NCBI GenBank assembly: GCA_032622095.1
Contig: CP136061.1
Coordinates: 169,699,107-169,763,106 of the forward strand
DNA: 64,000 nt
Origin: Siphonodentalium dalli
Taxonomy: Eukaryota > Mollusca > Scaphopoda > Gadilida > Siphonodentaliidae
Direction of reading: 5' to 3'
Shown here piece by piece: positions 35,437 through 61,086 of this stretch. The notes under the pieces were generated by a model. The model ran no database searches. It was not told the DNA's origin and saw only the letters and a list, made by a program, of their open reading frames with translations. A program made the translations under genes and the position numbers. The stretch's first letter is position 1. Each line of letters begins with the position of its first letter.

Positions 35437-35449
35437 AGTAGTAGTGTGA

Positions 35450-35600
35450 GGAAGGATACGGGAGTGAAAATCCTTTGTTAACATCAAAGGGTTTTCAATA
35501 TTCCACTTTCAACATCAAAGGAATTCCTCAAAAGATCAAAGGATTCACATTTCACACCTCAGTATTCCACTTTCAAACCTCAGTGTGAAAATGTGCTTTG
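35450..35600. repeat. Subterminal repeats of the large element
   Basis: Within 150 bp of the end, TATTCCACTTTCAA occurs twice, AACATCAAAGG twice, GATCAAAGGATT once and CACACCTCAG/AAACCTCAGTG twice. Such short subterminal repeats are candidate protein-binding sites for the enzyme that recognises the ends. The mirror copy is at about 60917-61067. Confidence 0.6.
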
Positions 35601-35782
35601 ATATCACCAAACAAGGAAATGAACTGAAAAACCCCGTATTTTCTATAAGCTGTGATCTCTCCAAACAAGGAAACGAACTGAAAAACCCTATATTTATCAA
35701 AGTGGGTCAGTACAGTAATAAATATATTAAGTCCGGTACATCTATATATATCTACGTATATATTAAAACCACTAACAGTTGA
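35600..35782 (+). other. Short duplicated motif encoding KQGNELKNP twice
   Basis: CCAAACAAGGAAATGAACTG at 35607 recurs as CCAAACAAGGAAACGAACTG at 35661 (54 bp apart, a multiple of three). The open frame here reads KQGNELKNPVFS then KQGNELKNPIF. It has no ATG at its left edge except an internal one at 35591. The repeat may be structural DNA rather than coding. It is mirrored at 60735-60917. Confidence 0.35.
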
Positions 35783-35812
35783 AACCAAAATATTTAAACT
35801 TTATAAATCTCA

Positions 35813-35995
35813 ATGGATAATTGGACACATCCGTGCAAATCATCAGACGGTATAGACATATATCCAGGTAGAACTATTTTGGCGACAGCTGTTAAACGAT
35901 ATTATGGAATTCCACAACAATATATAATGAGGAAAGCAGAATTAACCAGATTGATTATGCTACTAATAGAAGAGATACACCCATTGGTTCGCTAG
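35813..35995 (+). CDS. Uncharacterised 60-residue frame near the left end
   Basis: ATG-initiated frame beginning MDNWTHPCKSSDGIDIYPGR, with a probable amphipathic helix at residues 40-55 (RKAELTRLIMLLIEEI). It lies 376 bp inside the element terminus. Beyond it, in another frame, a stretch ending at 36039 reads GCDTEPNCKCYFCE, a Cys-x5-Cys-x-Cys-x2-Cys cluster like a small zinc-binding site; a frame slip in the ancestor could join the two. I recognise no family. The mirror copy at 60522-60704 differs at residue 9 (Lys to Thr). Similarity between arms does not prove coding because the arms are recent copies. Confidence 0.25.
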   Translation: MDNWTHPCKSSDGIDIYPGRTILATAVKRYYGIPQQYIMRKAELTRLIMLLIEEIHPLVR

Positions 35996-36282
35996 GTTGT
36001 GATACTGAACCTAACTGTAAATGTTATTTCTGCGAATGACCAATACAAGAATTGAAGAGAAATTCCAAAAAAACACTACATAGAATTTACCTGACTGGTG
36101 ACGTCACCCCTTAATGAGATGTATGACAGGAACATTATGATGTGTGACAGACAACCTAACAACGAGTGATATTTCTAAATCGTGAAAATACAGAGGAACT
36201 ATATTCTTTAAAAATAAATCTCAATTTATATACAACCTAAACTATTGTGTTTGAATAACTTTTCCTATAATTAAAGGGGGGT

Positions 36283-36510
36283 TCGGTTGTTCACTCGGTA
36301 GAGTGTCAGGTGTATTACACCATCACAGACCGTCCAGCGCTGACGAAGTTGGTTCGAACCCCGTGATAGCGAGGGTGACCTGAATCGTGTATATTGACAA
36401 GTTTGTCAGTTGCTTTCCGGGGGTCGGTGGTCTCTACACGCAGTGGAACGATTTCCCGGTGGAGTTAAGCCTATGCGTGGTCTTTCCTCCACCCTAGCGG
36501 CAAGAATGAC
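36283..36510 (+). mobile_element. tRNA-derived SINE, best-preserved copy (left arm)
   Basis: An A-box-like element (GTTGTTCACTCGGTAGAGTG) and a B-box (GGTTCGAACCCC at 36351) are spaced as in a tRNA promoter. They are followed by a conserved-looking core (GTCAGTTGCTTTCCGGGGGT, CGGTGGTCTCTACAC, ATTTCCCGGTGGAGTTAA) and a tail ending near AATGACGATAAACCC. Four related sequences in the same arm share this core. It is not a functional tRNA: no acceptor stem and a long loop. The family name is not known to me. The mirror copy is at about 60007-60236. Confidence 0.65.
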
Positions 36511-37544
36511 GATAAACCCTAACAAAACAAACACGTAGATGAATTCAAATGCCAAACAAAGTAATAGCAGACAGGCGTGGGAAAAAATCGGCTACCATAC
36601 AATGCGGATATATGTATCCCAAGTGGTGGTCTCCACTATAATAAATACCGATAACACTATCTGAAGCAAATATGTGTACGGACGGACAGACGAATGGCTG
36701 CATGTACCAAATATTCCAGAGATGCAATATAATCGAATATCAGACGCGAATACTCAACAACGACAACACTATTTGCTAAATATAACTTACCCATAACCAA
36801 TCACCCGCAAAATATAGATCACCAACAACCCTGTAATCGGAATGTATCCCATAGCAACTATATGTATATGTATAGCTAGCATGAATCGTGTTTGCAAGCA
36901 GTTAAAATTCAAAATAACCCCGTGAAGGGTCCGGGTCAAATACGTGACATATAAAAGGAAATAAGATTAGAAATCGTTACAGTTTATAAACGAGAGGTGA
37001 ACGCGGGGGAGCTTAGCAAAAGGATGCGTGTTTTGCAACGGGGCGTGACAAACCTGCTAAACTCCGAAAATGCTATTTTGTCAGTAATAAAAAATTGAAC
37101 CTGAGTCGTACGTGAACAGTCAGGGAAGTTTAAGATATGTACATGATGTTTATCCAACTGTGCCAATTCCCTCGAGTAACAATTGAAACCCTCTAATGAA
37201 CTGACAAATATAAGGTCAAGAAGGATAAACAACAAATTAAGTTGGTCCCCAATTAACCCTTATAGCCCAAACTATAGAAAATAGGTCGGAGACTTATACA
37301 GAGAGAGAAGACATTTCCGATGAGAATAAATATCTGCGGAATGTACACGAATCAAAGATAAGGACGTTATTATAGTCCCTGCATATATCCCAATCATTGA
37401 ACGCTCTTTATTATTGGACAACCAAATATTATAATAATTTACCAGACAAAAAAGTCCAGCCATGTAATTGTCCGCCTATTAATGAAATTCGAGGCAAGGC
37501 AAAGTATAATGTCATTAGTGGTAGTACTTGACTAAATATTAAAT

Positions 37545-37860
37545 GCAATATAGTTTCGACCTTCACAAAGAGACACGTATAGTACACAGTAATAAACCGT
37601 CCAGCAAAGGTGGAGATGCTTTGAACCTTGGTGTAGGGAGGGTGATCATAATAGTACATACCAGACCCTTTCAATGAGCTAGAGACTTCTAGACGTGGGG
37701 GGTTCTATTTCCCGTAAAATTAACCCCTTGCGTCGTCGTTCCACCCACCGAGAAACTAACAATGTTATTACAGTCCCTAAGCAGACCCAGAGTGATGGAA
37801 CGCTCTTTATTATTAGGGACTGGGCACTATAAACATTAATTAGCCCAGGCAAAAACATTT
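37545..37860 (+). mobile_element. Diverged SINE copy with AATAATAAAGAGCGTTC tail motif
   Basis: In order it contains ACCGTCCAGC, TTTGAACC (B-box position), GGAGGGTGATC, GTGGGGGGTTCTATTTCCCG, AATTAACCCC and TTCCACCC, each with a counterpart in the SINE at 36283. Its tail has GAACGCTCTTTATTATT, which also occurs at about 37399 and, inverted, at 38018, so a second truncated copy or tail duplication lies at 37330-37470. The mirror is at about 58657-58972. Confidence 0.5.
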
Positions 37861-39889
37861 GCCTATACAAGTTATATGTATATGTAATTGTTGATAATTC
37901 TTAAATTTCTATGCAATGTATTGCAGAATGTCTAGACTAATTGAATATGGTGGGAGTATTTAAATTATTCATGTCTTGAAACCTTTAGACAACTTTAAAT
38001 TCACCTGTATATAATAAAGAGCGTTCTAATCACGCCGAGTATTTGTGTATAAAGTGCAAAGCACAAGGAATATCACCACTAATAAGTCAATACAACAGTA
38101 TAAAATATGTTTATTTTGATTGGTGGAATAAACAATAATCAATATGTGTAAGGTAGATTAATTAAATGCTCTTCTTAAATGCTCTTCTGTTCAAATATAC
38201 AACAATTGGATCAAGTTAACCGTGGAATATCTGATTGTATAGGACCGAATCAATACAACTTTTGAAATTTCACCCACAGCAAGTGGTACCAACCAGAGCT
38301 TATACACATGGATCTCATAATTGAATTAATATATAGTCTGAATGAATAGTTCTTCAACAGGGGGTGGTCCAGCCTAATCCAATACAAGGTACACAGAGAT
38401 GGAGAACATGAAATATATAATTAAATATATTTCTACGCACACAGTTCATACATTTAGAATACTTATTCATAGAAGCTCGTAATATAATGCACTCCAATTC
38501 TGAAATTCCTTTTATATGCTCAACAATGGTATCATTTCCCCAAAATAGCCACAATCTAGCATTCTGAGAACCAAATCGAATCAGTACCTTCCCAATTCAT
38601 ACAACAGAGTAACAAAATGGAGATATGTATCTGTGTTTGTACAGCATATCTGCAGAATCAAATAACAGACAAGATGGTGAAAACAGCAGACTACAAATAT
38701 GAGTGACCCATAAGGTGTTATTCCTCAAATGTTAAACCAAAATTTGAAATCTATACAACTGAATTATGTGCACGCTTAATATGTTGTAAAATGTCTACAA
38801 CCCACAGATATCTTAACTAAGCTATCTGATCACACCTGCACATACCGATAGACTACTCAGATGATGAAAACCGATCCAATCAGATCCCGTTATAACGAGT
38901 ATAAAATATATGTGTATAAGAATATAAAATGTAAATCACATAATGGCATTTGACACAAACGAAAATAGAGAAGTTGTACTGATTTATTTACATGTAATTC
39001 CACTGGAATATGAAGGGCTGTTCGAGTGACCTCTGAAGTCTCGATTACAAACTATGTAATAAATTGAATGAATTAGTAAGTCAAACACAAGGTAATGCCT
39101 CGAAATTATAGTCCAAATCAGAAGTTGGTATTAATCAAAGAACAGTTCTTCTAATCTCAACCTGTATATTTAGTCAGACCTATAGGTACGTCTATAGTGT
39201 GCTTAAGAGTTTATGGAAAGGTCAGGTCTAGTTTAATTAATTCAATCTCTGAAAATAAGTTCCATTCTAATCAGACCTATATACCCCACGTGATGAGTAA
39301 AAAAACTGGTGAAATAAAATGCAAATCATATTAAACACTGAAATTTGACAAATAAATGATGAGGAGATACTTATCTGCGTTGGTAACGGATATGCGCGAA
39401 ATGATGCTCACTAATGTAAATTTAGTGACGCTAGCACTAGCGGTCCACTCTCAATAACAGATGAGGTACTAGATAACAATCAAAATATCTTGGTTATATG
39501 TTTATACCGGCACATAATTCACAAATTTCTGAGGACAAAAGGGCTGTAACTCCAATACAAATTGATGCACGAACCCGTGATGTGTGTATCTATGGGCGGT
39601 CATTCGGTCGGAAATTACATGAAATAAAAGTTAATGGTGGTTTGTGAATACAACTACAATCTATTTCAAACCAATAGTCTCCATTTTCAAACCAATAGTC
39701 GTTCTTTGATTCAATAAGAGACAATTCCGTGTTAACATATATAGATTCATAATCAATGTTGACCGATGCAAAATTAATGTTCAATTTTAATTTAATAGCA
39801 TTCATTGTTCAACTAATATCTAATAACAAACAATTAATACAGCTTCGCTCATATTCAATAAACGTATATTCCGTTTCAAGAGCCATATT

Positions 39890-40520
39890 TTCTTAATCAA
39901 TAGACATATTTCAAACCAATAGACGATTTCCCACGATCAGTGATTATCGTTATCAAACTAATCGACCTTATTGTAAAACTAGTAACTTATTGTATAACTA
40001 ATAACTAAAACCATAATTAACTTATTGTAAAACTAATAACTTATGGTAAAATTAATAGACCTTATTGTAAAACTAATAACTTATTGTAAAATTAATAGAC
40101 CTTTTTGTAAAATTAGTAGCTTATTGTATAACTAATAACTAAAACCATAATTAACTTATTGTAAAACTAATATCCTATTGTAAAATTAATTGACCTTATA
40201 GTAAAACTAATAACTTATTGCAAAATTAATAGACCTTATTGTAAAATTAATTGACCTTAATGAAAAACTAGTAACTTGTTGTATAACTAATAACTAAAAC
40301 CATAATTAACTTATTGTAAAATGAATAGACCTTATTGTAAAACTAATATCTAAAACCATAATTAACTTATTGTAAAACTAATAAATTATTGTACAATTAA
40401 TAGACCTTATTGTAAAACTAATAACTTATTGTAAAATCAATAGACATATTTCAAACCAATAGACTATTTCCCACGATCAATGATTATCGTTATCAAACTA
40501 ATAGACCTTATTGTCATTCT
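39890..40520 (+). repeat. AT-rich array in the left arm
   Basis: Irregular tandem repeats of AACTTATTGTAAAACTAATA with variants ATTAATAGACC and ACTAAAACCATAATTAACTT; about 20-25 bp between ATTGTAAAA words. It is bounded on both sides by a larger duplicated piece, TAGAC(A/G)TATTTC...CCACGATCA(G/A)TGATTATCGTTATC (about 39903 and 40442). Strong strand asymmetry: A/C-rich here, T/G-rich in the mirror. Confidence 0.85.
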
Positions 40521-43500
40521 TATATTTAATAGATATAAATTATCACAAGACGTTCTATTTCGATCAATGCAATAGGTTTCGTTTTAAAATCAATATCTAA
40601 TAGCGGAATCAACTATTTCCTAAATACCTTCATTACCCAATTCTCCGACACCCCTGCAAATATGTTAAAAATCTACAGAAACCGGTTTAATTAGTATATA
40701 TTCAATGATTTGCAATCTAGCACACATAAGTCGAGGTCCCAGATAAGATGTTAAATTGGTATTAATAGTCTATCGTGTTTGGGTAAATTCAATAAAATCA
40801 ATCTACAACAATTAATATTGATCAATAGCATAAAAGCTTTATGTTAAACAAGTTATAGAGGTCGAGTTTAATACAGTACACATACAGAAAATCATCTTTC
40901 CAATGTATACAACCTGATTAAAGTAATGAATATACATGCGATCGAAGTTCCATTGACAAACGTGAAAAAATCCATTCAAGCGAAATGAAAGTACTATTAC
41001 TGCATTGACTGTGTGAGTTTACCGACTTCATTTAATGTTGACCAATATTTTGTTTATATAGTTAATATTCCGATCCCATCGGTGTAGTAACGCTGATATA
41101 ACTTTCACTGAGTTGAAAATTCATTTAGCCTTTCGTATTGGCATGACTCAACTATAATCAGCAAATCGATTCGCGTGTATTGAATACAACCGATCGATGT
41201 TATCATAATGAATAGGGTAAATATCAAATGAACAATTAAGTTATTACCACTCGCACACGAACTCTATGACACCATCAAAATAGACATATCCGTTCATTTC
41301 CATGATACAGCGAAGCAATAAACGTATGCTTACGAATACGAGATCAGGGATAAACAATTGTGTTATCGAAAATAAGATGAAGGTCAACATGGTATACGGA
41401 AAAGCAAATGGTGAGGGCTCGTAGTAAGTATGAAATATTTGAAAGCAGGTGGATGGTCTTAAAAATTGGTTAAATATCAGTAGAAAAATATAGATGATTG
41501 AGTTTGCGAGCAATCCGGACTATCATGAGATATACATTCTGGAATTTAATACACGAATTAAATCTCAAGGGGAATAACTGTGAAGTTAAGTACACCATTG
41601 TTACTTGAGATGTGATAAACAACCAAGCGGTATGTCTCGTGGAACAGAATGTAAGAAGTTCAAGTTTTGTGTCCAACGTGTAGCACACGGAAGAGGAATT
41701 ATCTAAGCTTCTAATAAGCTAATGGTCGATTAGCGCTGTGCAGTCAACGGGGAAAATGGGATTTGTCTGCGTGGAAATGTCATATTTTGATTCAAATCAA
41801 TTAAGTCTACCCGTGGTCAAAGTTTGAGCAGCTTGTTATCACCGATCCAATATTGTTTACACGTTGTGCTATAAGGTGAACATATGACTATCAACGTTTG
41901 CGTTTGTCGCCGCAAAACAATGTGAATATTCTCCATAGCAATACCATAATTAACACAATTATACGTGCATGTGAATAATCCTAGCTATTTATGTGTGGTC
42001 ACTGTGTAACTTGACCATAATTGCATAATGATGCTGTTTGACACTATCACCACTCCCCAATTGACCTAGATTATGATCGTAGTATACATGCAGTTATAAT
42101 ATAGTGTCCAGTCCTTGTCCTCACTTATTCTATATTTAAGCAGTATTTTCCCGAGTTAAAAAATTTGAAATAATTTTAAATGAGTTAAATCCGATTTATA
42201 ATAATATTAATTGAATTTGGTACAGGTTGATATAGTTAAATGTCGGAAATATTAAAAAATAATATCAAGCAGAAAGGTCATATGTTCAATGTGGGTAAAC
42301 CATAGTCCATGGTACCTTGCAGCTATTTTGGGGTATTATTTACCGTGGATTTATATCGTTTAAATCTCTCATCTTAACATATCACAAATAGAGACTTTCT
42401 CACGTGTATTACGAAAGGTGTTAATATGTCCCCCGGTAAATATCCAGAAAGCACGCACGGCATCGATATTTATTCCATATCTAATTTACTCGAACCGAAA
42501 AAGATCATGTGATATATATAAAGCTGTAAGAATCTGTCAAAGAGCTGTTGAACTGAACCGTAAACAGTCCGTGACAATTTACCTGGATATTCTATCCCGG
42601 TCCTTGATAGTATAGACCCATATTTGAACTTTCGACTGGAATCTGTAAAATTCCTAAACTCAAATACATATTCCACTATTATGATATCCGATAAGCATTT
42701 AATACATTTCGATATGCAAGTTTCGTCATGGTTCACATCGAACGTAGCCAACAACGATTCTTTTTATTACTATTACATCATCTTTACGACGTTATTCGAT
42801 TCATCGTGGAAGGGTGTTGGTGTGAGAGCTGCGTGTTCAGGTATTGTCTTTAGTTTTCTTTTTATCTCCTCGGTTGTAGCTGTACTCTTATTATCAACTC
42901 ATTATATGTTTCTTTCCTTTTGTTGTCTCCTTAATTTTCTAAGGTGATGGTTTTTGTGTTCAATGTTTCGTATTATATGTATAACTCTTCAATATTGGAG
43001 GAAATAAAGATATATCTAGTTTGCACTGTTGTCCACTGGATCCAGTCCATACTTCCGGGGACCTGCGTAGTTATTCAGACGTTCTATTATCTAGAACGAC
43101 TATAACCAATACGAATGCGTCAAACTACGTAATTTCAATATCATTATACGATAGATACAACAGTTATCACCCGGAAGATATACTTGTTTTTTTGGAAAGT
43201 CCATGCGTGAATTGAAACGACCATGCACTAAACTGCCTACTTAGTAATTGGTACAAGTTGTTCAAATGTCTTAAGAATTGTCGATTCATCAAAACAAACG
43301 GAATGAGATGTTTGTCTTAACTTGAGTTCACATTGTCATTGTATAAAACACTGGTTTAGAAGATTCTTTAGATACTTCAAACTCGTATAACAAGCGCAAT
43401 AACCCGGATGATATAGTCTGGTTCCCCAGGTTGCATTACTGACTAGGTTCCGCGTATCTTGGTGAAGTTTAATTGTGCCATAATTCAACATACCGTTATC

Positions 43501-44099
43501 TTACAAGAGTATAGTTAACAAGACATCCGAGAATGAGATTGATTTATCCACCCAAAATCACATACAAAACCACATGATGTTCAGATTATCTCATAATTCG
43601 ACGTGGATCTTGAGCGTTAAATTGTTGGTAAATGGAGCAGGTGGTGAGACAATACAGTTTCATAATATGATAAACGCGAAGTCAACCAACTTAGCGTTGT
43701 ACGTCGAATGTTCGCGCTATTATATCCGGCAATACAATTATAATAGACATCCAAGTTTGCACAAAGCACGCAGCAGTTCCGTATAAACACGACATCAATC
43801 AATTGATCAACCGTTTGTGGCACTTGTGATTGCTGTTCCTGCTTCATGTTCTAGTCCATCAGAACGTTCCTCCAGAAATTACATAGAGGCTGGTCGTAAC
43901 GGGGTCTCAAATCGAGATTCGCACAAGAATTAAGAGGCGCACAATAGTTTGCTTTTCAACCTACCACATATACATGGCTATTGAATGGACATTTGTCTCG
44001 TCTAACTACTAAACTACAATATGATTGTTTGCGTTATAGATGTGTATTGCCTTTCTAACCGCTAAACCATAAAACTAAGTGTTAGTGTCATGTGTAAGA

Positions 44100-44310
44100 T
44101 GCGTATATATATATATAGGTTGTTAATCTCACGGGGTAAGGAACGTGGGAACATCTATGATCAGAAAGAAAATTGAAGTCGCGTGGAAACAACCGCTCCT
44201 CGGAAAGTAACTGAAAACTTGTCTGGATACACAAGTTTTCTGTCTCATTGCACGCATCGCAAAACTGCACCTATTTGGAATCGAACGTCAGCGCTGAACG
44301 GCGCGATAGT
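44100..44310 (-). mobile_element. Diverged SINE copy (left arm)
   Basis: Read on the minus strand it gives CAGCGCTGACGTTCGATTCC (B-box-like), then GACAAGTTTTCAGTTACTTTCC, GAGCGGTTGTTTCCACG and CCCCGTGAGATTAAC. This parallels the core of the SINE at 36283 in the same order. The mirror is at about 52194-52404 on the plus strand. Confidence 0.5.
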
Positions 44311-45007
44311 ATAAAACAATAGATACCACACACGTAAAATCGCGGGAATAATACACATATTAGTGTATAGGCGATCGGGGGAAATTTGAGGAACGATAAA
44401 GTGCGCGAAACGATAAAAATTACCTCCATACAATTGAATTGAAGGACCTGTGAGTGAATGTGACGATCGATATAAAATTACCAGTCAGTAAAATGCCTTG
44501 CTTATGCACCCCGAAAAGTAGAGCAAACGAAGACTCAACACCTTTGGACGTGGTAATTGATATAATCGTGATTTGTTGTCAAAAAGCTGGTATACATTTT
44601 TCTCATAAAGTCATATATATGTTTATATTCGATTTTGTTAACATATCACGATCAAATCAATCGCAGTGAGTGATAGTATGTGGTTTCTGCATGTATACGC
44701 ACAAAGGTTATATGGTTATGAATCGAATCTACATTGAGGCCTAGATCTCTCAGAGATGTTAGCTCGATCGGTTAATGGTTCGCTTTGACCAACACACCTA
44801 TGTACCGAGAGACATAATTTTATAAACTAAAACGCACCCCACTTATCGGTATGTCCGGGTTAGCAATAAGCAAGATTGTGATCTTCAGTTGTTCGTATGT
44901 CCAACACGTTAAATGCTTAATATGGTGAAGATGTCGCGGATAAAATAAAATATAGTATGTACCTGATCAATTTCGCACCATCAAACTAATTATACTATGG
45001 AGGTAGT

Positions 45008-45012
45008 TAAAT
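45008..45012. other. Empty site for the nested transposon in the left arm
   Basis: Here the sequence reads GGTAGT-TAAAT-GAGTTCTCCCGG without interruption, the exact reverse complement of the joined flanks of 47118-51491. It shows that the insertion happened in one arm after palindrome formation, or was excised precisely from the other. Confidence 0.9.
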
Positions 45013-45164
45013 GAGTTCTCCCGGAAGTGATAAACTTATACAATCCAGTGTTTCTGGTAGTTTGTCTTATTTAGGTTGTATTGATTTCAGTCGTCATATA
45101 GGCTACATTGCGAACGTATCGGGTTTTGGTCAGTATAACTGATGTATGGTTAATTCCATGGAAT

Positions 45165-45292
45165 ACGTGACGTGGAAACCAACCCAACCCCGAACAGAAT
45201 CTGACATATACATAAGCAAAACGTTCCATTGTGCCCATAGCAAATATGTGGCTCATATACTATGATCATTACCAACTGAGCTACCAAGTATC
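45165..45292 (-). mobile_element. Probable SINE remnant with A-box (left arm)
   Basis: On the minus strand it begins TTGGTAGCTCAGTTGGTAAT, a good tRNA A-box, and ends with a core-like TGGTTTCCACGTCACG...CCATGGAATTAACC resembling the other SINE cores. The B-box is not recognisable. The mirror is at 46833-46960. Confidence 0.4.
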
Positions 45293-45524
45293 CAACTATA
45301 AGACGGTATACAAGGTTACAACTAGTATACAGTGATACCGAATCCCGTGAGTGTAGCGAAGAGATTCCTATGCCTGGGATAATCTTAACCATTTTGTGAA
45401 TTGGTGTGTGTATACATATGTCTGGATGAACGGACGAGCAGATTGGCAAAGACATCTGGATTTATTCGAAACTTTTATTGATTGATGCATTAAATTGATA
45501 GGTATGGTTGCACCATACACAACG

Positions 45525-45526
<2 letters not shown>

Positions 45527-45622
<96 letters not shown>
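45527..45622 (+). repeat. GA microsatellite (left arm)
   Basis: An almost pure (GA)n tract of about 95 bp, followed by GATAGAGATAGAGAGTCTG. The matching CT tract in the right arm is about 44 bp shorter. The Arg-Glu repeat frame across it is an artefact. Confidence 0.95.
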
Positions 45623-46049
45623 GTCTGTTTCAAATGTGTGCGATCTGTATCGACTAATATTCTCGCTGTATAGCTTCTTTAATGTCTTGTAAACACTATC
45701 AAGGACTGATTCAAACTATTGAGGATTATAAGTCACTATCGTGAAGATCAGCAGTATGCTTCAACTAACTCATGCATATACTAGATTTTCTTACAAAGAA
45801 ATACCTGTCAAGCAGGAATCGTAGAATATGCTATAGAGACTAGTTCCTTATCCAGTGACCTATAATATGTATGTATGTGGTTCGGACGGAAACGTGTCTG
45901 AATGATGTCCCAAATAACAAAGGTTTAACCCCAACCTGTGTAAAGCAAACAACGTTTTGATATCATACACGTTCAGTAATGGCTCACTCTCGATGGAAAG
46001 GGATCACTGTAAGACAGTGGTCGTATATTCTAACCAGAGTGATGAGTCA

Positions 46050-46110
46050 ACAATTGGATATTTTCCAACCGCCCCCCGGAGGGGGGGGGGGGTGGCGGTT
46101 GGAAAATATC
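46050..46110. repeat. Palindrome centre, no real spacer
   Basis: Left side TTGGATATTTTCCAACCGCC, then CCCCGGA and a run of ~13 G, then TGGCGGTTGGAAAATATCCA. The dyad axis is near 46084. The only asymmetries are a few bases in the C/G run and CAATT against CAATACT just outside. A spacer of about ten bases or fewer makes this a near-perfect 21-kb dyad able to extrude a cruciform. Confidence 0.9.
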
Positions 46111-46544
46111 CAGTATTGTTGACTCATCACTCTGGTTAGAATATACGACCACTGTCTTACAGTGATCCCTTTCCATCGAGAGTGAGCCATTACTGAACGT
46201 GTATGATATCAAAACGTTGTTTGCTTTACACAGGTTGGGGTTAAACCTTTGTTATTTGGGACATCATTCAGACACGTTTCCGTCCGAACCACATACATAC
46301 ATATTATAGGTCACTGGATAAGGAACTAGTCTCTATAGCATATTCTACGATTCCTGCTTGACAGGTATTTCTTTGTAAGAAAATCTAGTATATGCATGAG
46401 TTAGTTGAAGCATACTGCTGATCTTCACGATAGTGACTTATAATCCTCAATAGTTTGAATCAGTCCTTGATAGTGTTTACAAGACATTAAAGAAGCTATA
46501 CAGCGAGAATATTAGTCGATACAGATCGCACACATTTGAAACAG

Positions 46545-46546
46545 AC

Positions 46547-46598
<52 letters not shown>
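46545..46598 (-). repeat. CT microsatellite (right-arm mirror)
   Basis: CTCTCTATCTCTATC followed by pure (CT)n to 46598. It is the mirror of 45527-45622 but about 44 bp shorter, consistent with slippage after arm duplication. Confidence 0.95.
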
Positions 46599-46600
<2 letters not shown>

Positions 46601-46832
46601 CGTTGTGTATGGTGCAACCATACCTATCAATTTAATGCATCAATCAATAAAAGTTTCGAATAAATCCAGATGTCTTTGCCAATCTGCTCGTCCGTTCATC
46701 CAGACATATGTATACACACACCAATTCACAAAATGGTTAAGATTATCCCAGGCATAGGAATCTCTTCGCTACACTCACGGGATTCGGTATCACTGTATAC
46801 TAGTTGTAACCTTGTATACCGTCTTATAGTTG

Positions 46833-46975: not shown

Positions 46976-47112
46976 CCATACATCAGTTATACTGACCAAA
47001 ACCCGATACGTTCGCAATGTAGCCTATATGACGACTGAAATCAATACAACCTAAATAAGACAAACTACCAGAAACACTGGATTGTATAAGTTTATCACTT
47101 CCGGGAGAACTC

Positions 47113-50100: not shown

Positions 50101-51491
50101 TTCGTTTCCGAAATTTTCCTAATACCCGGTTATAGACACCCGCTGGTTTTAGCGTTTGTTGTGAACCCGTATAATTCCAGACCACGCGTGTTTTGGTGGT
50201 GTTGGGCTTTTCCGTTATGGCGAGAATACACGATGGCCTCGGAAAATGACTGGCAGGGATGTACTATGTAGTTTCCCATCTATACAATCGGTATAAGTTA
50301 CATTGCGACTTCTGTCGACTTCAGACGGCTATCATCACTGGCATCTTGCGATATATGCATGCATCATTGAATGCTGAATCCGATAGTATTGATATATAAT
50401 ATGTCAAACTATTTTCTATTACCTTAAATTCTACATGTTATGTGCATATATTGACAAATGTCAGCGATATGAGACTGAGTCGTGTCGAAATAAACGATTT
50501 CGCCATCGGCAGTCACTGCATTTAATTACTATATAAGAATGACGGTGTGTGTTGTCAATTTAGATATAACATTTGTAAAAATAACTACTTTGAACAAGAT
50601 TATTCTCCACTCCTATTCGATCACCTTACCGGAGTGTTTCACATCACTTTAAAAGTTTTTTTCTTTTATTAATTTCAGAAACATTTGAATTTGAAACAAA
50701 AATTGAATAATACAACTTAAAGCTTCTTCCTGGTTCAACTCAAGCAGTGTCGATATTGCGATTTATTCATTTATAAAAGTTTGGTTTATTTTAGCCTATA
50801 ATTATATGTATATGATGCATCAACCAGAATGACCCTTATTCTTATTCCCTATAATAATATTGATATATAACGGTCATATAATTACTTATTATTTTATTCA
50901 TTTATGTCTTGTGATAGTTATTCCGTGAAAAACGTATTAATTAGCCTGCCACAAGTGAAGTAGTCTACTTTTGAGCCGATATATACCGATTCGCCTCGGC
51001 AATATTCGGGGATCTTATAGCGAGGGAAGAATTATACTCTTGCGCTGCCATAAGTTCCATTAACTGTGAAGGCATACACTACTCACTAGTCCTAAAACTA
51101 ATTGTGATATTCGGCAAGTGAAAGAAAGAATTCAGCCAAATTGCCAATTTTGGAATCAAATGTTGACTATATATGTAGGCGTTACCATTTATGTCACAAT
51201 TCCAGATTTAAAGTCAATGTAGGCGTTACCATTTCAAAACTCTGAAACATGCCTCGAAAATTGGTGACGGAAACCACCTGAACGCGATAATCTTTACAAC
51301 CGTTACATATATATCTCGGTACAGATGACTGTGAGCTAGCAAACAATGTTTTACAGCTCATAAACAATGATTTTTTTTAGTGGTTTATGAACATAGTTTG
51401 CAAAAACGACAAATACTTACTTCGAGTCGCACCGAGCAGCCGCCATTTTTCGGTGAAAAACTTTGTTTTATGACGTAGGTTCCAGGCCCTG
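47118..51491. mobile_element. 4,374-bp transposon nested in the right arm only
   Basis: It begins CAGGGCCTGGAACCTACGTC(A) and ends with the exact 21-bp inverted copy. ATTTA flanks both sides (47113-47117 and 51492-51496) and occurs once in the left arm (TAAAT at 45008-45012), proving a clean 5-bp duplication. Subterminal AATGTAGGCGTTACCATTT occurs twice near the right end (51173, 51216) and inverted near the left (47542). CAGGG ends are common in hAT elements, but these usually duplicate 8 bp; 5-bp duplications are known in some hAT subgroups and in Transib/ProtoRAG types. No frame above ~110 codons, so non-autonomous. Confidence 0.85.
49150..49430. repeat. Dispersed repeat inside the nested transposon, two units
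   Basis: TTCTGGTC(T/C)(A/G)TCACCATACC occurs near 49160 and TTCTGGTCCGTCACCATGCC near 49328, each followed by GACAACCGAC and ending in GTACGGAC. The second ends with GTACGGACGGACGG. Non-coding dispersed repeat of the molluscan style. Confidence 0.5.
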
Positions 51492-52193
51492 ATTTAACTA
51501 CCTCCATAGTATAATTAGTTTGATGGTGCGAAATTGATCAGGTACATACTATATTTTATTTTATCCGCGACATCTTCACCATATTAAGCATTTAACGTGT
51601 TGGACATACGAACAACTGAAGATCACAATCTTGCTTATTGCTAACCCGGACATACCGATAAGTGGGGTGCGTTTTAGTTTATAAAATTATGTCTCTCGGT
51701 ACATAGGTGTGTTGGTCAAAGCGAACCATTAACCGATCGAGCTAACATCTCTGAGAGATCTAGGCCTCAATGTAGATTCGATTCATAACCATATAACCTT
51801 TGTGCGTATACATGCAGAAACCACATACTATCACTCACTGCGATTGATTTGATCGTGATATGTTAACAAAATCGAATATAAACATATATATGACTTTATG
51901 AGAAAAATGTATACCAGCTTTTTGACAACAAATCACGATTATATCAATTACCACGTCCAAAGGTGTTGAGTCATCGTTTGCTCTACTTTTCGGGGTGCAT
52001 AAGCAAGGCATTTTACTGACTGCTAATTTTATATCGATCGTCACATTCACTCACAGGTCCTTCAATTCAATTGTATGGAGGTAATTTTTATCGTTTCGCG
52101 CACTTTATCGTTCCTCAGATTTCCCCCGATCGCCTATACACTAATATGTGTATTATTCCCGCAATTTTACGTGTGTGGTATCTATTGTTTTAT

Positions 52194-52404
52194 ACTATCG
52201 CGCCGTTCAGCGCTGACGTTCGATTCCAAATAGGTGCAGTTTTGCGATCCGTGCAATGAGACAGAAAACTTGTGTATCCAGACAAGTTTTCAGTTACTTT
52301 CCGAGGAGCGGTTGTTTCCACGCGACTTCAATTTTCTTTCTGATCATAGATGTTCCCACGTTCCTTACCCCGTGAGATTAACAACCTATATATATATATA
52401 CGCA
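52194..52404 (+). mobile_element. Diverged SINE copy (right-arm mirror)
   Basis: Plus-strand mirror of the 44100-44310 copy. TTCGATTCC lies at 52221 and TTTCAGTTACTTTCCGAG at 52287. One substitution distinguishes it near 52248 (GATCCGTGC against GATGCGTGC). Confidence 0.5.
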
Positions 52405-55400
52405 TCTTACACATGACACTAACACTTAGTTTTATGGTTTAGCGGTTAGAAAGGCAATACACATCTATAACGCAAACAATCATATTGTAGTTTAGTAGTT
52501 AGACGAGACAAATGTCCATTCAATAGCCATGTATATGTGGTAGGTTGAAAAGCAAACTATTGTGCGCCTCTTAATTCTTGTGCGAATCTCGATTTGAGAC
52601 CCCGTTACGACCAGCCTCTATGTAATTTCTGGAGGAACGTTCTGATGGACTAGAACATGAAGCAGGAACAGCAATCACAAGTGCCACAAACGGTTGATCA
52701 ATTGATTGATGTCGTGTTTATACGGAACTGCTGCGTGCTTTGTGCAAACTTGGATGTCTATTATAATTGTATTGCCGGATATAATAGCGCGAACATTCGA
52801 CGTACAACGCTAAGTTGGTTGACTTCGCGTTTATCATATTATGAAACTGTATTGTCTCACCACCTGCTCCATTTACCAACAATTTAACGCTCAAGATCCA
52901 CGTCGAATTATGAGATAATCTGAACATCATGTGGTTTTGTATGTGATTTTGGGTGGATAAATCAATCTCATTCTCGGATGTCTTGTTAACTATACTCTTG
53001 TAAGATAACGGTATGTTGAATTATGGCACAATTAAACTTCACCAAGATACGCGGAACCTAGTCAGTAATGCAACCTGGGGAACCAGACTATATCATCCGG
53101 GTTATTGCGCTTGTTATAGGAGTTTGAAGTATCTAAATAATCTTCTAAACCAGTGTTTTATACAATGACAATGTGAACTCAAGTTAAGACAAACATCTCA
53201 TTCCGTTTGTTTTGATGAATCGACAATTCTTAAGACATTTGAACAACTTGTACCAATTACTAAGTAGGCAGTTTAGTGCATGGTCGTTTCAATTCACGCA
53301 TGGACTTTCCAAAAAAACAAGTATATCTTCCGGGTGATAACTGTTGTATCTATCGTATAATGATATTGAAATTACGTAGTTTGACGCATTCGTATTGGTT
53401 ATAGTCGTTCTAGATAATAGAACGTCTGAATAACTACGCAGGTCCCCGGAAGTATGGACTGGATCCAGTGGACAACAGTGCAAACTAGATATATCTTTAT
53501 TTCCTGCAATATTGAAGAGTTATACATATAATACGAAACATTGAACACAAAAACCATCACCTTAGAAAATTAAGGAGACAACAAAAGGAAAGAAACATAT
53601 AATGAGTTGATAATAAGAGTACAGCTACAACCGAGGAGATAAAAAGAAAACTAAAGACAATACCTGAACACGCAGCTCTCACACCAACACCCTTCCACGA
53701 TGAATCGAATAACGTCGTAAAGATGATGTAATAGTAATAAAAAGAATCGTTGTTGGCTACGTTCGATGTGAACCATGACGAAACTTGCATATCGAAATGT
53801 ATTAAATGCTTATCGGATATCATAATAGTGGAATATGTATTTGAGTTTAGGAATTTTACAGATTCCAGTCGAAAGTTCAAATATGGGTCTATACTATCAA
53901 GGACCGGGATAGAATATCCAGGTAAATTGTCACGGACTGTTTACGGTTCAGTTCAACAGCTCTTTGACAGATTCTTACAGCTTTATATATATCACATGAT
54001 CTTTTTCGGTTCGAGTAAATTAGATATGGAATAAATATCGATGCCGTGCGTGCTTTCTGGATATTTACCGGGGGACATATTAACACCTTTCGTAATACAC
54101 GTGAGAAAGTCTCTATTTGTGATATGTTAAGATGAGAGATTTAAACGATATAAATCCACGTTAAATAATACCCCAAAATAGCTGCAAGGTACCATGGACT
54201 ATGGTTTACCCACATTGAACATATGACCTTTCTGCTTGATATTATTTTTAAATATTTCCGACATTTAACTATATCAACCTGTACCAAATTCAATTAATAT
54301 TATTATAAATCGGATTTAACTCATTTCAAATTATTTCAAATTTTTTAACTCGGGAAAATACTGCTTAAATATAGAATAAGTGAGGACAAGGACTGGACAC
54401 TATATTATAACTGCATGTATACTACGATCATAATCTAGGTCAATTGGGGAGTGGTGATAGTGTCAAACAGCATCATTATGCAATTATGGTCAAGTTACAC
54501 AGTGACCACACATAAATAGCTAGGATTATTCACATGCACGTATAATTGTGTTAATTATGGTATTGCTATGGAGAATATTCACATTGTTTTGCGGCGACAA
54601 ACGCAAACGTTGATAGTCATATGTTCACCTTATAGCACAACGTGTAAACAATATTGGATCGGTGATAACAAGCTGCTCAAACTTTGACCACGGGTAGACT
54701 TAATTGATTTGAATCAAAATATGACATTTCCACGCAGACAAATCCCATTTTCCCCGTTGACTGCACAGCGCTAATCGACCATTAGCTTATTAGAAGCTTA
54801 GATAATTCCTCTTCCGTGTGCTACACGTTGGACACAAAACTTGAACTTCTTACATTCTGTTCCACGAGACATACCGCTTGGTTGTTTATCACATCTCAAG
54901 TAACAATTGTGTACTTAACTTCACAGTTATTCCCCTTGAGATTTAATTCGTGTATTAAATTCCAGAATGTATATCTCATGATAGTCCGGATTGCTCGCAA
55001 ACTCAATCATCTATATTTTTCTACTGATATTTAACCAATTTTTAAGACCATCCACCTGCTTTCAAATATTTCATACTTACTACGAGCCCTCACCATTTGC
55101 TTTTCCGTATACCATGTTGACCTTCATCTTATTTTCGATAACACAATTGTTTATCCCTGATCTCGTATTCGTAAGCATACGTTTATTGCTTCGCTGTATC
55201 ATGGAAATGAACGGATATGTCTATTTTGATGGTGTCATAGAGTTCGTGTGCGAGTGGTAATAACTTAATTGTTCATTTGATATTTACCCTATTCATTATG
55301 ATAACATCGATCGGTTGTATTCAATACACGCGAATCGATTTGCTGATTATAGTTGAGTCATGCCAATACGAAAGGCTAAATGAATTTTCAACTCAGTGAA

Positions 55401-55989
55401 AGTTATATCAGCGTTACTACACCGATGGGATCGGAATATTAACTATATAAACAAAATATTGGTCAACATTAAATGAAGTCGGTAAACTCACACAGTCAAT
55501 GCAGTAATAGTACTTTCATTTCGCTTGAATGGATTTTTTCACGTTTGTCAATGGAACTTCGATCGCATGTATATTCATTACTTTAATCAGGTTGTATACA
55601 TTGGAAAGATGATTTTCTGTATGTGTACTGTATTAAACTCGACCTCTATAACTTGTTTAACATAAAGCTTTTATGCTATTGATCAATATTAATTGTTGTA
55701 GATTGATTTTATTGAATTTACCCAAACACGATAGACTATTAATACCAATTTAACATCTTATCTGGGACCTCGACTTATGTGTGCTAGATTGCAAATCATT
55801 GAATATATACTAATTAAACCGGTTTCTGTAGATTTTTAACATATTTGCAGGGGTGTCGGAGAATTGGGTAATGAAGGTATTTAGGAAATAGTTGATTCCG
55901 CTATTAGATATTGATTTTAAAACGAAACCTATTGCATTGATCGAAATAGAACGTCTTTAATTGTGTATTGGTGATAATTTATATCTATT

Positions 55990-56625
55990 AAATATAAGAA
56001 TGACAATAAGGTCTATTAGTTTGATAACGATAATCATTGATCGTGGGAAATAGTCTATTGGTTTGAAATATGTCTATTGATTTTACAATAAGTTATTAGT
56101 TTTACAATAAGGTCTATTAATTGTACAATAATTTATTAGTTTTACAATAAGTTAATTATGGTTTTAGATATTAGTTTTACAATAAGGTCTATTCATTTTA
56201 CAATAAGTTAATTATGGTTTTAGTTATTAGTTATACAACAAGTTACTAGTTTTTCATTAAGGTCAATTAATTTTACAATAAGGTCTATTAATTTTGCAAT
56301 AAGTTATTAGTTTTACTATAAGGTCAATTAATTTTACAATAGGATATTAGTTTTACAATAAGTTAATTATGGTTTTAGTTATTAGTTATACAATAAGCTA
56401 CTAATTTTACAAAAAGGTCTATTAATTTTACAATAAGTTATTAGTTTTACAATAAGGTCTATTAATTTTACCATAAGTTATTAGTTTTACAATAAGTTAA
56501 TTATGGTTTTAGTTATTAGTTATACAATAAGTTACTAGTTTTACAATAAGGTCGATTAGTTTGATAACGATAATCACTGATCGTGGGAAATCGTCTATTG
56601 GTTTGAAATATGTCTATTGATTAAG
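55990..56625 (-). repeat. AT-rich array in the right arm
   Basis: Reverse complement of 39890-40520, made of TATTAGTTTTACAATAAGTT units. The segment between conserved flanks is 13 bases longer than in the left arm, so array length or its close flank has changed since the arms were copied. Confidence 0.85.
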
Positions 56626-58656
56626 AAAATATGGCTCTTGAAACGGAATATACGTTTATTGAATATGAGCGAAGCTGTATTAATTGTTTGTTATTAGATA
56701 TTAGTTGAACAATGAATGCTATTAAATTAAAATTGAACATTAATTTTGCATCGGTCAACATTGATTATGAATCTATATCTGTTAACACGGAATTGTCTCT
56801 TATTGAATCAAAGAACGACTATTGGTTTGAAAATGGAGACTATTGGTTTGAAATAGATTGTAGTTGTATTCACAAACCACCATTAACTTTTATTTCATGT
56901 AATTTCCGACCGAATGACCGCCCATAGATACACACATCACGGGTTCGTGCATCAATTTGTATTGGAGTTACAGCCCTTTTGTCCTCAGAAATTTGTGAAT
57001 TATGTGCCGGTATAAACATATAACCAAGATATTTTGATTGTTATCTAGTACCTCATCTGTTATTGAGAGTGGACCGCTAGTGCTAGCGTCACTAAATTTA
57101 CATCAGTGAGCATCATTTCGCGCATATCCGTTACCAACGCAGATAAGTATCTCCTCATCATTTATTTGTCAAATTTCAGTGTTTAATATGATTTGCATTT
57201 TATTTCACCAGTTTTTTTACTCATCACGTGGGGTATATAGGTCTGATTAGAATGGAACTTATTTTCAGAGATTGAATTAATTAAACTAGACCTGACCTTT
57301 CCATAAACTCTTAATCACACTATAGACGTACCTATAGGTCTGACTAAATATACAGGTTGAGATTAGAAGAACTGTTCTTTGATTAATACCAACTTCTGAT
57401 TTGGACTATAATTTCGAGGCATTACCTTGTGTTTGACTTACTAATTCATTCAATTTATTACATAGTTTGTAATCGAGACTTCAGAGGTCACTCGAACAGC
57501 CCTTCATATTCCAGTGGAATTACATGTAAATAAATCAGTACAACTTCTCTATTTTCGTTTGTGTCAAATGCCATTATGTGATTTACATTTTATATTCTTA
57601 TACACATATATTTTATACTCGTTATAACGGGATCTGATTGGATCGGTTTTCATCATCTGAGTAGTCTATCGGTATGTGCAGGTGTGATCAGATAGCTTAG
57701 TTAAGATATCTGTGGGTTGTAGACATTTTACAACATATTAAGCGTGCACATAATTCAGTTGTATAGATTTCAAATTTTGGTTTAACATTTGAGGAATAAC
57801 ACCTTATGGGTCACTCATATTTGTAGTCTGCTGTTTTCACCATCTTGTCTGTTATTTGATTCTGCAGATATGCTGTACAAACACAGATACATATCTCCAT
57901 TTTGTTACTCTGTTGTATGAATTGGGAAGGTACTGATTCGATTTGGTTCTCAGAATGCTAGATTGTGGCTATTTTGGGGAAATGATACCATTGTTGAGCA
58001 TATAAAAGGAATTTCAGAATTGGAGTGCATTATATTACGAGCTTCTATGAATAAGTATTCTAAATGTATGAACTGTGTGCGTAGAAATATATTTAATTAT
58101 ATATTTCATGTTCTCCATCTCTGTGTACCTTGTATTGGATTAGGCTGGACCACCCCCTGTTGAAGAACTATTCATTCAGACTATATATTAATTCAATTAT
58201 GAGATCCATGTGTATAAGCTCTGGTTGGTACCACTTGCTGTGGGTGAAATTTCAAAAGTTGTATTGATTCGGTCCTATACAATCAGATATTCCACGGTTA
58301 ACTTGATCCAATTGTTGTATATTTGAACAGAAGAGCATTTAAGAAGAGCATTTAATTAATCTACCTTACACATATTGATTATTGTTTATTCCACCAATCA
58401 AAATAAACATATTTTATACTGTTGTATTGACTTATTAGTGGTGATATTCCTTGTGCTTTGCACTTTATACACAAATACTCGGCGTGATAAGAACGCTCTT
58501 TATTATATACAGGTGAATTTAAAGTTGTCTAAAGGTTTCAAGACATGAATAATTTAAATACTCCCACCATATTCAATTAGTCTAGACATTCTGCAATACA
58601 TTGCATAGAAATTTAAGAATTATCAACAATTACATATACATATAACTTGTATAGGC

Positions 58657-58972
58657 AAATGTTTTTGCCTGGGCTAATTAATGTTTATAGTGCCCAGTCC
58701 CTAATAATAAAGAGCGTTCCATCACTCTGGGTCTGCTTAGGGACTGTAATAACATTGTTAGTTTCTCGGTGGGTGGAACGACGACGCAAGGGGTTAATTT
58801 TACGGGAAATAGAACCCCCCACGTCTAGAAGTCTCTAGCTCATTGAAAGGGTCTGGTATGTACTATTATGATCACCCTCCCTACACCAAGGTTCAAAGCA
58901 TCTCCACCTTTGCTGGACGGTTTATTACTGTGTACTATACGTGTCTCTTTGTGAAGGTCGAAACTATATTGC
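58657..58972 (-). mobile_element. Diverged SINE copy (right-arm mirror)
   Basis: Mirror of 37545-37860 at the expected reflected position, on the minus strand. The AATAATAAAGAGCGTTC motif is at 58700-58717. Confidence 0.5.
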
Positions 58973-60006
58973 ATTTAATATTTAGTCAAGTACTACCACT
59001 AATGACATTATACTTTGCCTTGCCTCGAATTTCATTAATAGGCGGACAATTACATGGCTGGACTTTTTTGTCTGGTAAATTATTATAATATTTGGTTGTC
59101 CAATAATAAAGAGCGTTCAATGATTGGGATATATGCAGGGACTATAATAACGTCCTTATCTTTGATTCGTGTACATTCCGCAGATATTTATTCTCATCGG
59201 AAATGTCTTCTCTCTCTGTATAAGTCTCCGACCTATTTTCTATAGTTTGGGCTATAAGGGTTAATTGGGGACCAACTTAATTTGTTGTTTATCCTTCTTG
59301 ACCTTATATTTGTCAGTTCATTAGAGGGTTTCAATTGTTACTCGAGGGAATTGGCACAGTTGGATAAACATCATGTACATATCTTAAACTTCCCTGACTG
59401 TTCACGTACGACTCAGGTTCAATTTTTTATTACTGACAAAATAGCATTTTCGGAGTTTAGCAGGTTTGTCACGCCCCGTTGCAAAACACGCATCCTTTTG
59501 CTAAGCTCCCCCGCGTTCACCTCTCGTTTATAAACTGTAACGATTTCTAATCTTATTTCCTTTTATATGTCACGTATTTGACCCGGACCCTTCACGGGGT
59601 TATTTTGAATTTTAACTGCTTGCAAACACGATTCATGCTAGCTATACATATACATATAGTTGCTATGGGATACATTCCGATTACAGGGTTGTTGGTGATC
59701 TATATTTTGCGGGTGATTGGTTATGGGTAAGTTATATTTAGCAAATAGTGTTGTCGTTGTTGAGTATTCGCGTCTGATATTCGATTATATTGCATCTCTG
59801 GAATATTTGGTACATGCAGCCATTCGTCTGTCCGTCCGTACACATATTTGCTTCAGATAGTGTTATCGGTATTTATTATAGTGGAGACCACCACTTGGGA
59901 TACATATATCCGCATTGTATGGTAGCCGATTTTTTCCCACGCCTGTCTGCTATTACTTTGTTTGGCATTTGAATTCATCTACGTGTTTGTTTTGTTAGGG
60001 TTTATC

Positions 60007-60236
60007 GTCATTCTTGCCTTAAGGGTGGAGGAAAGACCACGCATAGGCTTAATTTCACCGGGAAATCGTTCCACTGCGTGTAGAGACCACCGACCCCCGG
60101 AAAGCAACTGACAAACTTGTCAATATACACGATTCAGGTCACCCTCGCTATCACGGGGTTCGAACCAACTTCGTCAGCGCTGGACGGTCTGTGACGGTGT
60201 AATACACCTGACACTCTACCGAGTGAACAACCGAAC
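60007..60236 (-). mobile_element. tRNA-derived SINE (right-arm mirror copy)
   Basis: Reverse-complement copy of the SINE at 36283-36510, with B-box GGTTCGAACCCC read on the minus strand at about 60155-60166. It has a few substitutions, such as CTTAAGGGTGGAGG where the left arm gives CCTCCACCCTAGCG. Confidence 0.65.
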
Positions 60237-60521
60237 CCCCCTTTAATTATAGGAAAAGTTATTCAAACACAATAGTTTAGGTTGTATATAAATTGAGATT
60301 TATTTTTAAAGAATATAGTTCCTCTGTATTTTCACGATTTAGAAATATCACTCGTTGTTAGGTTGTCTGTCACACATCATAATGTTCCTGTCATACATCT
60401 CTTTAAGGGGTGACGTCACCAGTCAGGTAAATTCTATGTAGTGTTTTTTTGGAATTTCTCTTCAATTCTTGTATTGGTCATTCGCAGAAATAACATTTAC
60501 AGTTAGGTTCAGTATCACAAC

Positions 60522-60704
60522 CTAGCGAACCAATGGGTGTATCTCTTCTATTAGTAGCATAATCAATCTGGTTAATTCTGCTTTCCTCATTATATATTGT
60601 TGTGGAATTCCATAATATCGTTTAACAGCTGTCGCCAAAATAGTTCTACCTGGATATATGTCTATACCGTCTGATGATGTACACGGATGTGTCCAATTAT
60701 CCAT
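60522..60704 (-). CDS. Uncharacterised 60-residue frame near the right end (mirror copy)
   Basis: Mirror of 35813-35995, identical except residue 9 (Thr instead of Lys; GTACAC in place of GCAAAT). It keeps its ATG, its stop and the downstream cysteine cluster in the alternative frame. Possible small protein of the element, unproven. Confidence 0.25.
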   Translation of the reverse strand: MDNWTHPCTSSDGIDIYPGRTILATAVKRYYGIPQQYIMRKAELTRLIMLLIEEIHPLVR

Positions 60705-61080
60705 TGAGATTTATAAAGTTTAAATATTTTGGTTTCAACTGTTAGTGGTTTTAATATATACGTAGATATATATAGATGTACCGGACTTAATATATTTATT
60801 ACTGTACTGACCCACTTTGATAAATATAGGGTTTTTCAGTTCGTTTCCTTGTTTGGAGAGATCACAGCTTATAGAAAATACGGGGTTTTTCAGTTCATTT
60901 CCTTGTTTGGTGATATCAAAGCACATTTTCACACTGAGGTTTGAAAGTGGAATACTGAGGTGTGAAATGTGAATCCTTTGATCTTTTGAGGAATTCCTTT
61001 GATGTTGAAAGTGGAATATTGAAAACCCTTTGATGTTAACAAAGGATTTTCACTCCCGTATCCTTCCTCACACTACTACT

Positions 61081-61086
61081 TATAAG
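61081..61086. other. Target-site duplication, right (TATAAG)
   Basis: Directly follows the CTACTACT terminus and continues into TTAGTACAATACTC, exactly as in copy A at 20237. Confidence 0.95.

Follow-up and report, generated by a model that had tools for sequence, protein, structure and literature searches.

A 25.6-kb palindromic insertion with Polinton-type ends in the genome of the scaphopod Siphonodentalium dalli

A 64-kb stretch of DNA from the scaphopod mollusc Siphonodentalium dalli (contig CP136061.1 of assembly GCA_032622095.1, written here as C1:169699107-169763106 and called the window) contains an insertion of 25.6 kb, at 35437-61080, that reads as one giant palindrome. The element is probably a non-autonomous member of a palindromic lineage of Polintons (Mavericks), which would have arisen by fold-back, been mobilised in trans and been inherited as a palindrome. 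A wider proposal is put forward more tentatively, as one that may hold but falls short of probable. It is that a long-lived Polinton lineage has a full palindrome for a genome, which is replicated, spread and inherited in this form with its halves kept identical as one terminal inverted repeat (TIR), and that the lineage includes both a gene-bearing form and non-coding palindromes living off it, in the manner of defective-interfering-like satellites fixed in the animal germline. The window has a G+C content of 37% and no N, and the genome searched is its own (2.23 Gb in 9 contigs).

The palindrome and its insertion site

The insertion is made of two mirror arms of ~10.6 kb each around a 3-base centre, which lies between runs of C and G (C6-GGA-G12, ~46072-46092; letters CCAACCGCCCCCC-GGA-GGGGGGGGGGGGTGGCGGTTGG). 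Comparison of the window with itself gave inverted arm blocks at 35437-40546/55971-61080 (5110 nt, 100%) and 40547-45015/51489-55957 (4469 nt, 100%), as well as inner blocks at 45008-45579/46546-47117 and 45571-46054/46115-46598, far beyond chance. What separates the arm blocks is a transposon that inserted later, and the original palindrome was ~21.3 kb long. Aligned without this nested insertion, the arms run for 10.57 kb with 25 substitutions and one 13-bp indel; they also differ in the length of a GA repeat and in small details beside the centre.

The ends of the element read (AGT)3, AGTAGTAGTGTG, in agreement with the (AGT)n or (AG)n end motif of Polintons, and the 6-bp target-site duplication (TSD) TATAAG at both flanks has the length typical of Polintons. 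An unoccupied paralogous site with one TATAAG is present inside the window (GAACGTATAAGTTAGTAC at ~20231); the left flank of the element matches 19231-20236 (98.8%) and the right flank matches 20228-22326 (97.5%). Because TATAAG is found twice around the element and the paralogous site is empty, the element is a genuine, separate insertion, made in one of the two copies of a duplicated stretch. The segmental duplication pairs 19231-23088 with 34434-35436 plus 61081-64000 at 95.6-98.8% identity, and only one copy carries the element. The short TIR and unique interior of Polintons are not seen here, as the inverted repeat is the whole element.

None of the Polinton core genes (PolB, rve integrase, ATPase, capsid) was detected in the element, which is therefore classed only as a non-autonomous Polinton derivative. 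A six-frame Pfam search of the left arm gave matches below the families' own cut-offs only. Since Pfam missed the PolB-like protein of a gene-bearing palindrome described below, the proteins of that palindrome were run by tblastn against the whole window, where the best E was 0.31; in a control, 10 of 10 proteins matched a monomeric Polinton, the C2 monomer, at 8e-16 or better. The longest open reading frame (ORF) in the arm, 127 amino acids (aa), is ordinary next to an order-2 Markov model (mean 119, maximum 179 in 100 simulations), and there are 12 frames of at least 80 aa compared to a simulated mean of 7.5. Scans for tRNA and Rfam families gave no match. The CpG observed/expected ratio of the arm, 0.98, compares with 0.59 over the first 35 kb of the window; within those flanks (1-35000) it is uneven, ranging from 0.2 to 0.96 per 2 kb. 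In viral contigs the end pattern had 0 matches, and the PolB pattern had 1 stretch that was not confirmed.

The initial annotation of this DNA had proposed a discrete giant-palindrome insertion with complete halves of ~10.6 kb and no recognisable core gene. The arm alignment, the TATAAG duplication and the empty site bear out the former, and the Pfam and tblastn searches the latter. It had also called the ends AG-starting and Polinton-like; the likeness stands, and the ends are not just AG but (AGT)3. The features of the window are as follows.

19231..23088, plus strand: paralogue of the flanks without the element (empty site)
35431..35436, no strand: left TSD TATAAG; paralogous empty site at ~20231-20236
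35437..46077, plus strand: left palindrome arm, ~10.6 kb, begins (AGT)3GTG, no gene detected
35437..35643, plus strand: terminal 207 bp, ~95% identical with both ends of the gene-bearing palindrome
36278..36540, plus strand: dispersed repeat, presumably SINE-like, mirrored in the right arm
39950..40445, plus strand: minisatellite in the arm, mirrored at ~56072-56562
46078..46080, no strand: centre GGA between the C6 and G12 runs; small imperfect hairpin TGGATATTTTCCAACCGCC..GGCGGTTGGAAAATATCCA
46081..61080, minus strand: right palindrome arm, including the nested insertion
47118..51491, no strand: nested transposon of 4374 bp, right arm only, 21-bp inverted ends CAGGGCCTGGAACCTACGTCA, 5-bp TSD ATTTA
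60874..61080, minus strand: the same terminal 207 bp at the right end
61081..61086, no strand: right TSD TATAAG

The dispersed repeat at 36278-36540, presumably like a short interspersed nuclear element (SINE), holds 6 of the 25 arm differences, and many genome-wide matches fall here, at 840-1001 of the query. The nested transposon is non-coding; a six-frame Pfam search gave one unrelated match only (E 0.1). Going by its end letters only, it is presumably hAT-like; hAT elements have a transposase and an 8-bp duplication, and this one has a 5-bp duplication and no coding domain. Beside the element are arrays of a 164-bp satellite at 23594-27132, 31085-31548 and 32490-34424, with higher-order periods of 319 and 483 bp. 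Farther off, at 3760-4408, there is a minisatellite of the ACACCTGGGTGGGAAACACCAAGGT type with long ORFs on both strands that are probably spurious.

Related elements elsewhere in the genome

A search with a 300-bp end of the gene-bearing palindrome, in which all 17 candidates were scored, found seven two-ended and three single-ended elements with ends of the window's type. The two-ended elements are the window element (C1), C7:76285239-76308753 (C7), C3:258034564-258059020 (C3), C9:65447364-65469269 (C9), C5:133349138-133366917 (C5), C8:58923529-58926304 (C8) and the gene-bearing palindrome at C3:55520322-55542469, which is distinct from the non-coding C3 copy. The single-ended elements are at C5:259046443, C3:97133742 and C1:272923850, and no second such end was present within the 30-40 kb fetched beside each. 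The C1, C7, C3 and C9 copies are non-coding palindromes built on one common arm, with part of one arm lost near the centre in C9. The C5 copy retains arm positions 1-9655 and 1-1212 at its two ends, and the C8 copy 1-2462 and 1-315; such asymmetry is due to deletions that removed the centre, as is to be expected of a palindrome. A gypsy-type RNase H/integrase fragment has inserted into the left arm of the C7 palindrome, at 4018-5889 of the fetched stretch.

Perfect 6-bp TSDs flank six of the seven two-ended copies (TATAAG, TGCATC, AATATA, TATATT, ACTAAA and GCCGAT), and the seventh, C9, has the flanks ATATAG/ATCAAG. Between most copies the first 840 bp differ by 2.3-4.3%, which is above most of the interior (C3-C7 at 0.1% and C5-C8 at 0.7% are closer), whereas the two ends of one copy differ by 0-1.1%. 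High differences between copies with low ones within a copy mean that the ends seem to have been exchanged between lineages, with each exchange reaching both sides. The C5 and C8 copies have a different end type over these 840 bp, common to both.

The gene-bearing palindrome is 22.1 kb long, has the TSD GCCGAT and has 207 bp of its ends in common with the window element (~95%). Its two arms, on either side of a 375-bp centre, have 27 substitutions between them over 10,883 bases. From the end inwards, the left arm carries a 120-aa ORF, an integrase in two ORFs, a 146-aa ORF, a 111-aa ORF, a capsid-like protein of 353 aa, an A32/FtsK-type ATPase, a 123-aa ORF and a PolB-like protein of 1224 aa. 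The right arm has the same two integrase frames, a 110-aa ORF, a capsid-like protein of 439 aa, the ATPase, the 123-aa ORF and a PolB-like protein of 1273 aa; here the 146-aa ORF falls where two fetched pieces meet, and no 120-aa ORF is in the ORF listing. In the left arm, the integrase ORFs match rve (9.9e-5, 23.0 bits, below the cut-off) and chromo (2.9e-10, above the cut-off), the first of them also matches a PHROGs transposase family (4e-7), and the ATPase has matches at 2.1e-6 and 1.6e-5, both just above the cut-off. The PolB-like protein is taken to be PolB from its motifs (YADFET, DANNLYGWAM, NNSIYGKT and DTDS), and the 353- and 439-aa proteins are assumed to be capsid proteins from motifs as well; searches of PHROGs and of PDB sequences identified neither.

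An 800-aa piece of this PolB, used as a query with 56 of 474 candidates scored, gave at least 57 matches, and only one inverted close pair was among them, the gene-bearing palindrome itself. Most of the PolB loci among the matches listed, judged by this pattern, are thus not palindromes. Contig C5 has clusters of PolB matches and Polinton ends at 223-229 Mb and 259-263 Mb. The nearest other PolB among the matches listed (77%) belongs to the C2 monomer (C2:18178228-18197125), which is 18.9 kb long with its genes in the same order as in the gene-bearing palindrome, a 176-bp inverted repeat (93%), the TSD GGCGGG and the end AGTAGTAGTGTACC. Its ends agree with the (AGT)2 motif and 6-bp TSDs of vertebrate Mavericks in the available part of PMC8097293. 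The window arm was compared with the gene-poor half of the C2 monomer, which it might have represented; no similarity was detectable, perhaps because the two are too distant, and the identification was rejected.

Matches at 85-92% to the inner 2 kb of the window's arm also occur elsewhere, with 14 of 14 candidates scored, and they define a sister subfamily whose palindromes have the same centre. Two of its palindromes, with matches at C1:18047863/18050076 and C3:17055960/17058171, are unbroken through the centre, have a related central motif and are self-complementary at 99.0-99.3% over 4.1-4.6 kb. One of them, C3:17047075-17068946 (C3:17.05), is 21.9 kb long with the TSD CACAGA; the other, at C1:18038977 (C1:18.05), has a right end short by ~250 bp. 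The window arm matches the fetched sister stretches, which cover the sister arm except for ~4.1-8.5 kb, at ~849-1058 and 8540-10616 only.

A search with the 1000-bp sister end, in which the best 40 of 157 candidates were scored, found this end on both sides of C3:17.05, of C8:98954960-98980233, which has inner inverted matches too, and of C8:134033420-134054975, which matches at its ends only. In each of eight other elements the match is ~1000 bp long at one end (once lacking the first 91) and just 378 bp long at the other; further matches had no partner among the best 40 of 157. Three of the eight contain a listed PolB match: C8:104107827-104129504 (the C8 monomer), C5:260933386-260954446 and C5:261651657-261672831. 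The two ends of the C8 monomer have only 378 bp in common, and over the 9 kb on its 1000-bp side only the C-terminal part of PolB matches a Polinton protein. From that end, the C8 monomer matches the sister palindrome arm for ~3.1 kb (94-97%, one indel) and more weakly beyond. Its stretch 104115501-104120500, beside PolB, has no match to the sister centre pieces, and 104111501-104115500 lies outside the sister-arm comparison. Since the monomer matches the sister arm over ~3.1 kb and its own ends are alike over only 378 bp, one terminus has been copied to both sides: each end of the sister palindromes is the gene-poor terminus of a PolB Polinton. In the gene-bearing palindrome, each end is instead the integrase-side terminus. 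Such doubling would be the outcome of fold-back or strand switching that began at the one terminus or the other.

Several earlier expectations can be read against these results. Kinship with Polintons holds through the 207-bp end common with an element carrying Polinton genes, and the other palindromic copies that were foreseen exist, as four of the seven two-ended elements, the window element included, are non-coding palindromes. A full Polinton with the same ends was also to be looked for; a gene-bearing element was found, but it is itself a palindrome, and among standard monomers sister-subfamily ends turned up and the window's did not. The copying of one terminus to both sides is upheld for the sister subfamily, by the C8 monomer. 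What has to be given up is the picture of a one-off defective genome, as the element belongs to a multi-copy palindromic lineage with two subfamilies.

Origin of the palindrome and competing explanations

The history of the arms can be followed through substitutions common to several of them, counted in 17 arm pieces and eight arms (7 pieces lack one or two arms); _L and _R stand for the left and right arm of a copy. Both arms of one copy are set apart at 92 sites in C9 and 16 in C1, and 12 sites set apart all four arms of C3 and C7. Four sites pair C3 and C7 crosswise (C3_L with C7_R or C3_R with C7_L), one pairs C1_R with C9_R, and there are a few mixed patterns besides. No site (0) splits all left from all right arms. 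In three inner arm pieces, the subfamilies differ at 93 fixed sites, all alike in both arms of every copy, and again 0 sites split the sister left from the sister right arms. The arms of one copy diverge by 0.11-0.62%, full-length copies by 0.5-2.0% (C3-C7 excepted), and the subfamilies mostly by 7.3-8.0% (6.4-6.7% for C9_L). Indels can be mirrored too: C3 and C7 have a deletion of 44 bp in each arm, and C9 has blocks of 663 bp and ~86 bp in each. Insertions found in one arm only are the nested transposon in C1, the gypsy-type fragment in C7 and one of 3.9 kb in C3. As shared changes almost always pair the arms of one copy or lineage, and the later insertions sit in one arm, the palindrome looks to have been inherited as such. 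The simple reading, which best fits the site patterns and the one-arm insertions, is that the free element keeps its arms equal and that they drift apart after its integration.

The fold-back origin would begin with a Polinton replicating as linear DNA, primed by protein at its (AGT)n ends; to our knowledge, such replication of Polintons has been deduced and not observed. A fold-back or strand switch near the middle would then copy one terminus, and the half behind it, to both sides. With two good Polinton ends, the palindrome could be replicated and inserted in trans by the integrase and protein-primed polymerase of gene-bearing relatives, a step suggested by the perfect 6-bp TSDs at six of the seven two-ended copies. 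Since its formation it would have been passed on as a palindrome. In the free element the displaced strand probably folds into a full-length hairpin in which mismatches are repaired or copied, so that the arms stay alike and would diverge only after integration. The panhandle of adenovirus-type replication is the same step, extended here to the whole molecule.

Other explanations have to be weighed against this one. Palindromes may be made anew, with a monomer folding back at the same central hairpin each time to give dead-end products and nothing inherited in palindromic form. The central motif is indeed a natural imperfect hairpin that would guide repeated fold-back to one place, and monomers with sister ends exist. 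However, the loci with the inner 2 kb are mostly palindromes or their derivatives with no listed PolB match within 25 kb of any, and three copies have identical small asymmetries at the centre, which makes repeated formation unlikely. The case against it is limited by C5:228814194, C9:166512297 and C9:166520211, where the inner arm matches in one orientation only (going by search matches alone). A rather improbable course is that the palindrome moves like any transposon and chromosomal gene conversion homogenises the arms later, as in sex-chromosome palindromes. In C1, C9 and the sister C1:18.05 each arm is nearest to its partner in the same copy, which does not hold for C3 and C7, but one-arm insertions and deletions persist unconverted in C1, C3 and C7, and arm-specific substitutions are scattered. 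Giant palindromes are of course a known assembly hazard, and the structure was read from the assembly alone. Even so, an artefact of fold-back reads or mis-joined copies is very improbable: a fold-back read would give neither the differing flanks that adjoin at the empty site, nor the 25 arm differences, nor the one-arm transposon, and there are also the TSDs and the same structure at other loci with TSDs of their own. It is just as hard to credit a foldback element or miniature inverted-repeat transposable element of a cut-and-paste superfamily with 6-bp duplications. The window copy has no gene, and foldback elements such as Tc4 and Galileo are long inverted repeats; against this stand the (AGT)n ends, the 6-bp TSD and the 207 bp at both ends in common with an element bearing Polinton genes.

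A number of points also weigh against the inherited palindromic Polinton. Its replication intermediate, hairpin and enzyme activity are all inferred from sequence, and ordinary chromosomal gene conversion could homogenise the arms. The arms of C3 and C7 are equally close within and between copies (0.11-0.19%). There are many single-arm changes, for example 9 in C1_L and 9 in C1_R, and these are expected after integration but also of any drifting repeat. The rve match of the gene-bearing palindrome, at 23.0 bits, is under its cut-off of 32.6; no Pfam PolB model matched, and the PolB and capsid labels come from motifs. The searches turned up no monomer sharing the window element's ends or inner arm, so that the case for a single doubled terminus is made from the sister subfamily, and in the C2 monomer the gene-poor half has no similarity to the window arm that could be detected.

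Relation to known systems

Several known structures resemble the element in part. Symmetric adenovirus recombinants and snap-back defective genomes have one terminus at both ends of a linear, protein-primed genome, but they are products of the laboratory or of infection, while the copies described here sit in a genome and have split into subfamilies. Foldback transposons such as Tc4, FB and Galileo are, like the window element, mostly inverted repeat; they belong to other superfamilies with other duplications and much shorter arms, and kinship with them is set aside on the Polinton ends. The palindromic ribosomal DNA of Tetrahymena, ~21 kb long, forms at a short inverted repeat during programmed somatic amplification, whereas the present element is a transposon.

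The closest likeness is to Polintons and Mavericks, in the (AGT)n ends, the 6-bp TSD and the integrase, ATPase, capsid-like and PolB-like genes of related gene-bearing copies. In vertebrate Mavericks, the available part of PMC8097293 gives inverted repeats of 46-1447 bp, an (AGT)2 end motif and 6-bp TSDs. Unlike these and the C2 monomer, the present elements are inverted repeat throughout, with 10.6-10.9 kb per arm. The repetition of ends in the window element would fit the jumping-back described in that source (PMC8097293). Cryptophyte Polinton-like viruses are integrated, with long TIRs and 6-bp duplications from an rve integrase; their inverted repeats were filtered at 100 bp to 8 kb, and no full palindrome appears in the available part of that work (PMC12220804). 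The initial annotation knew of no described Polinton derivative of this form, and no palindromic Polinton is among the papers listed from the literature searched either, with subscription papers mostly outside its coverage.

Palindromes with one Polinton terminus on both sides, whose arms seemingly change together before integration and diverge after it, are a natural record of how the element's linear DNA is replicated and its ends repaired. One palindrome of the lineage has genes in both halves. The non-coding palindromes look like satellite parasites of a virus-like element, in the way of defective genomes, and their preservation in chromosomes allows the history of one copy to be set against that of another.

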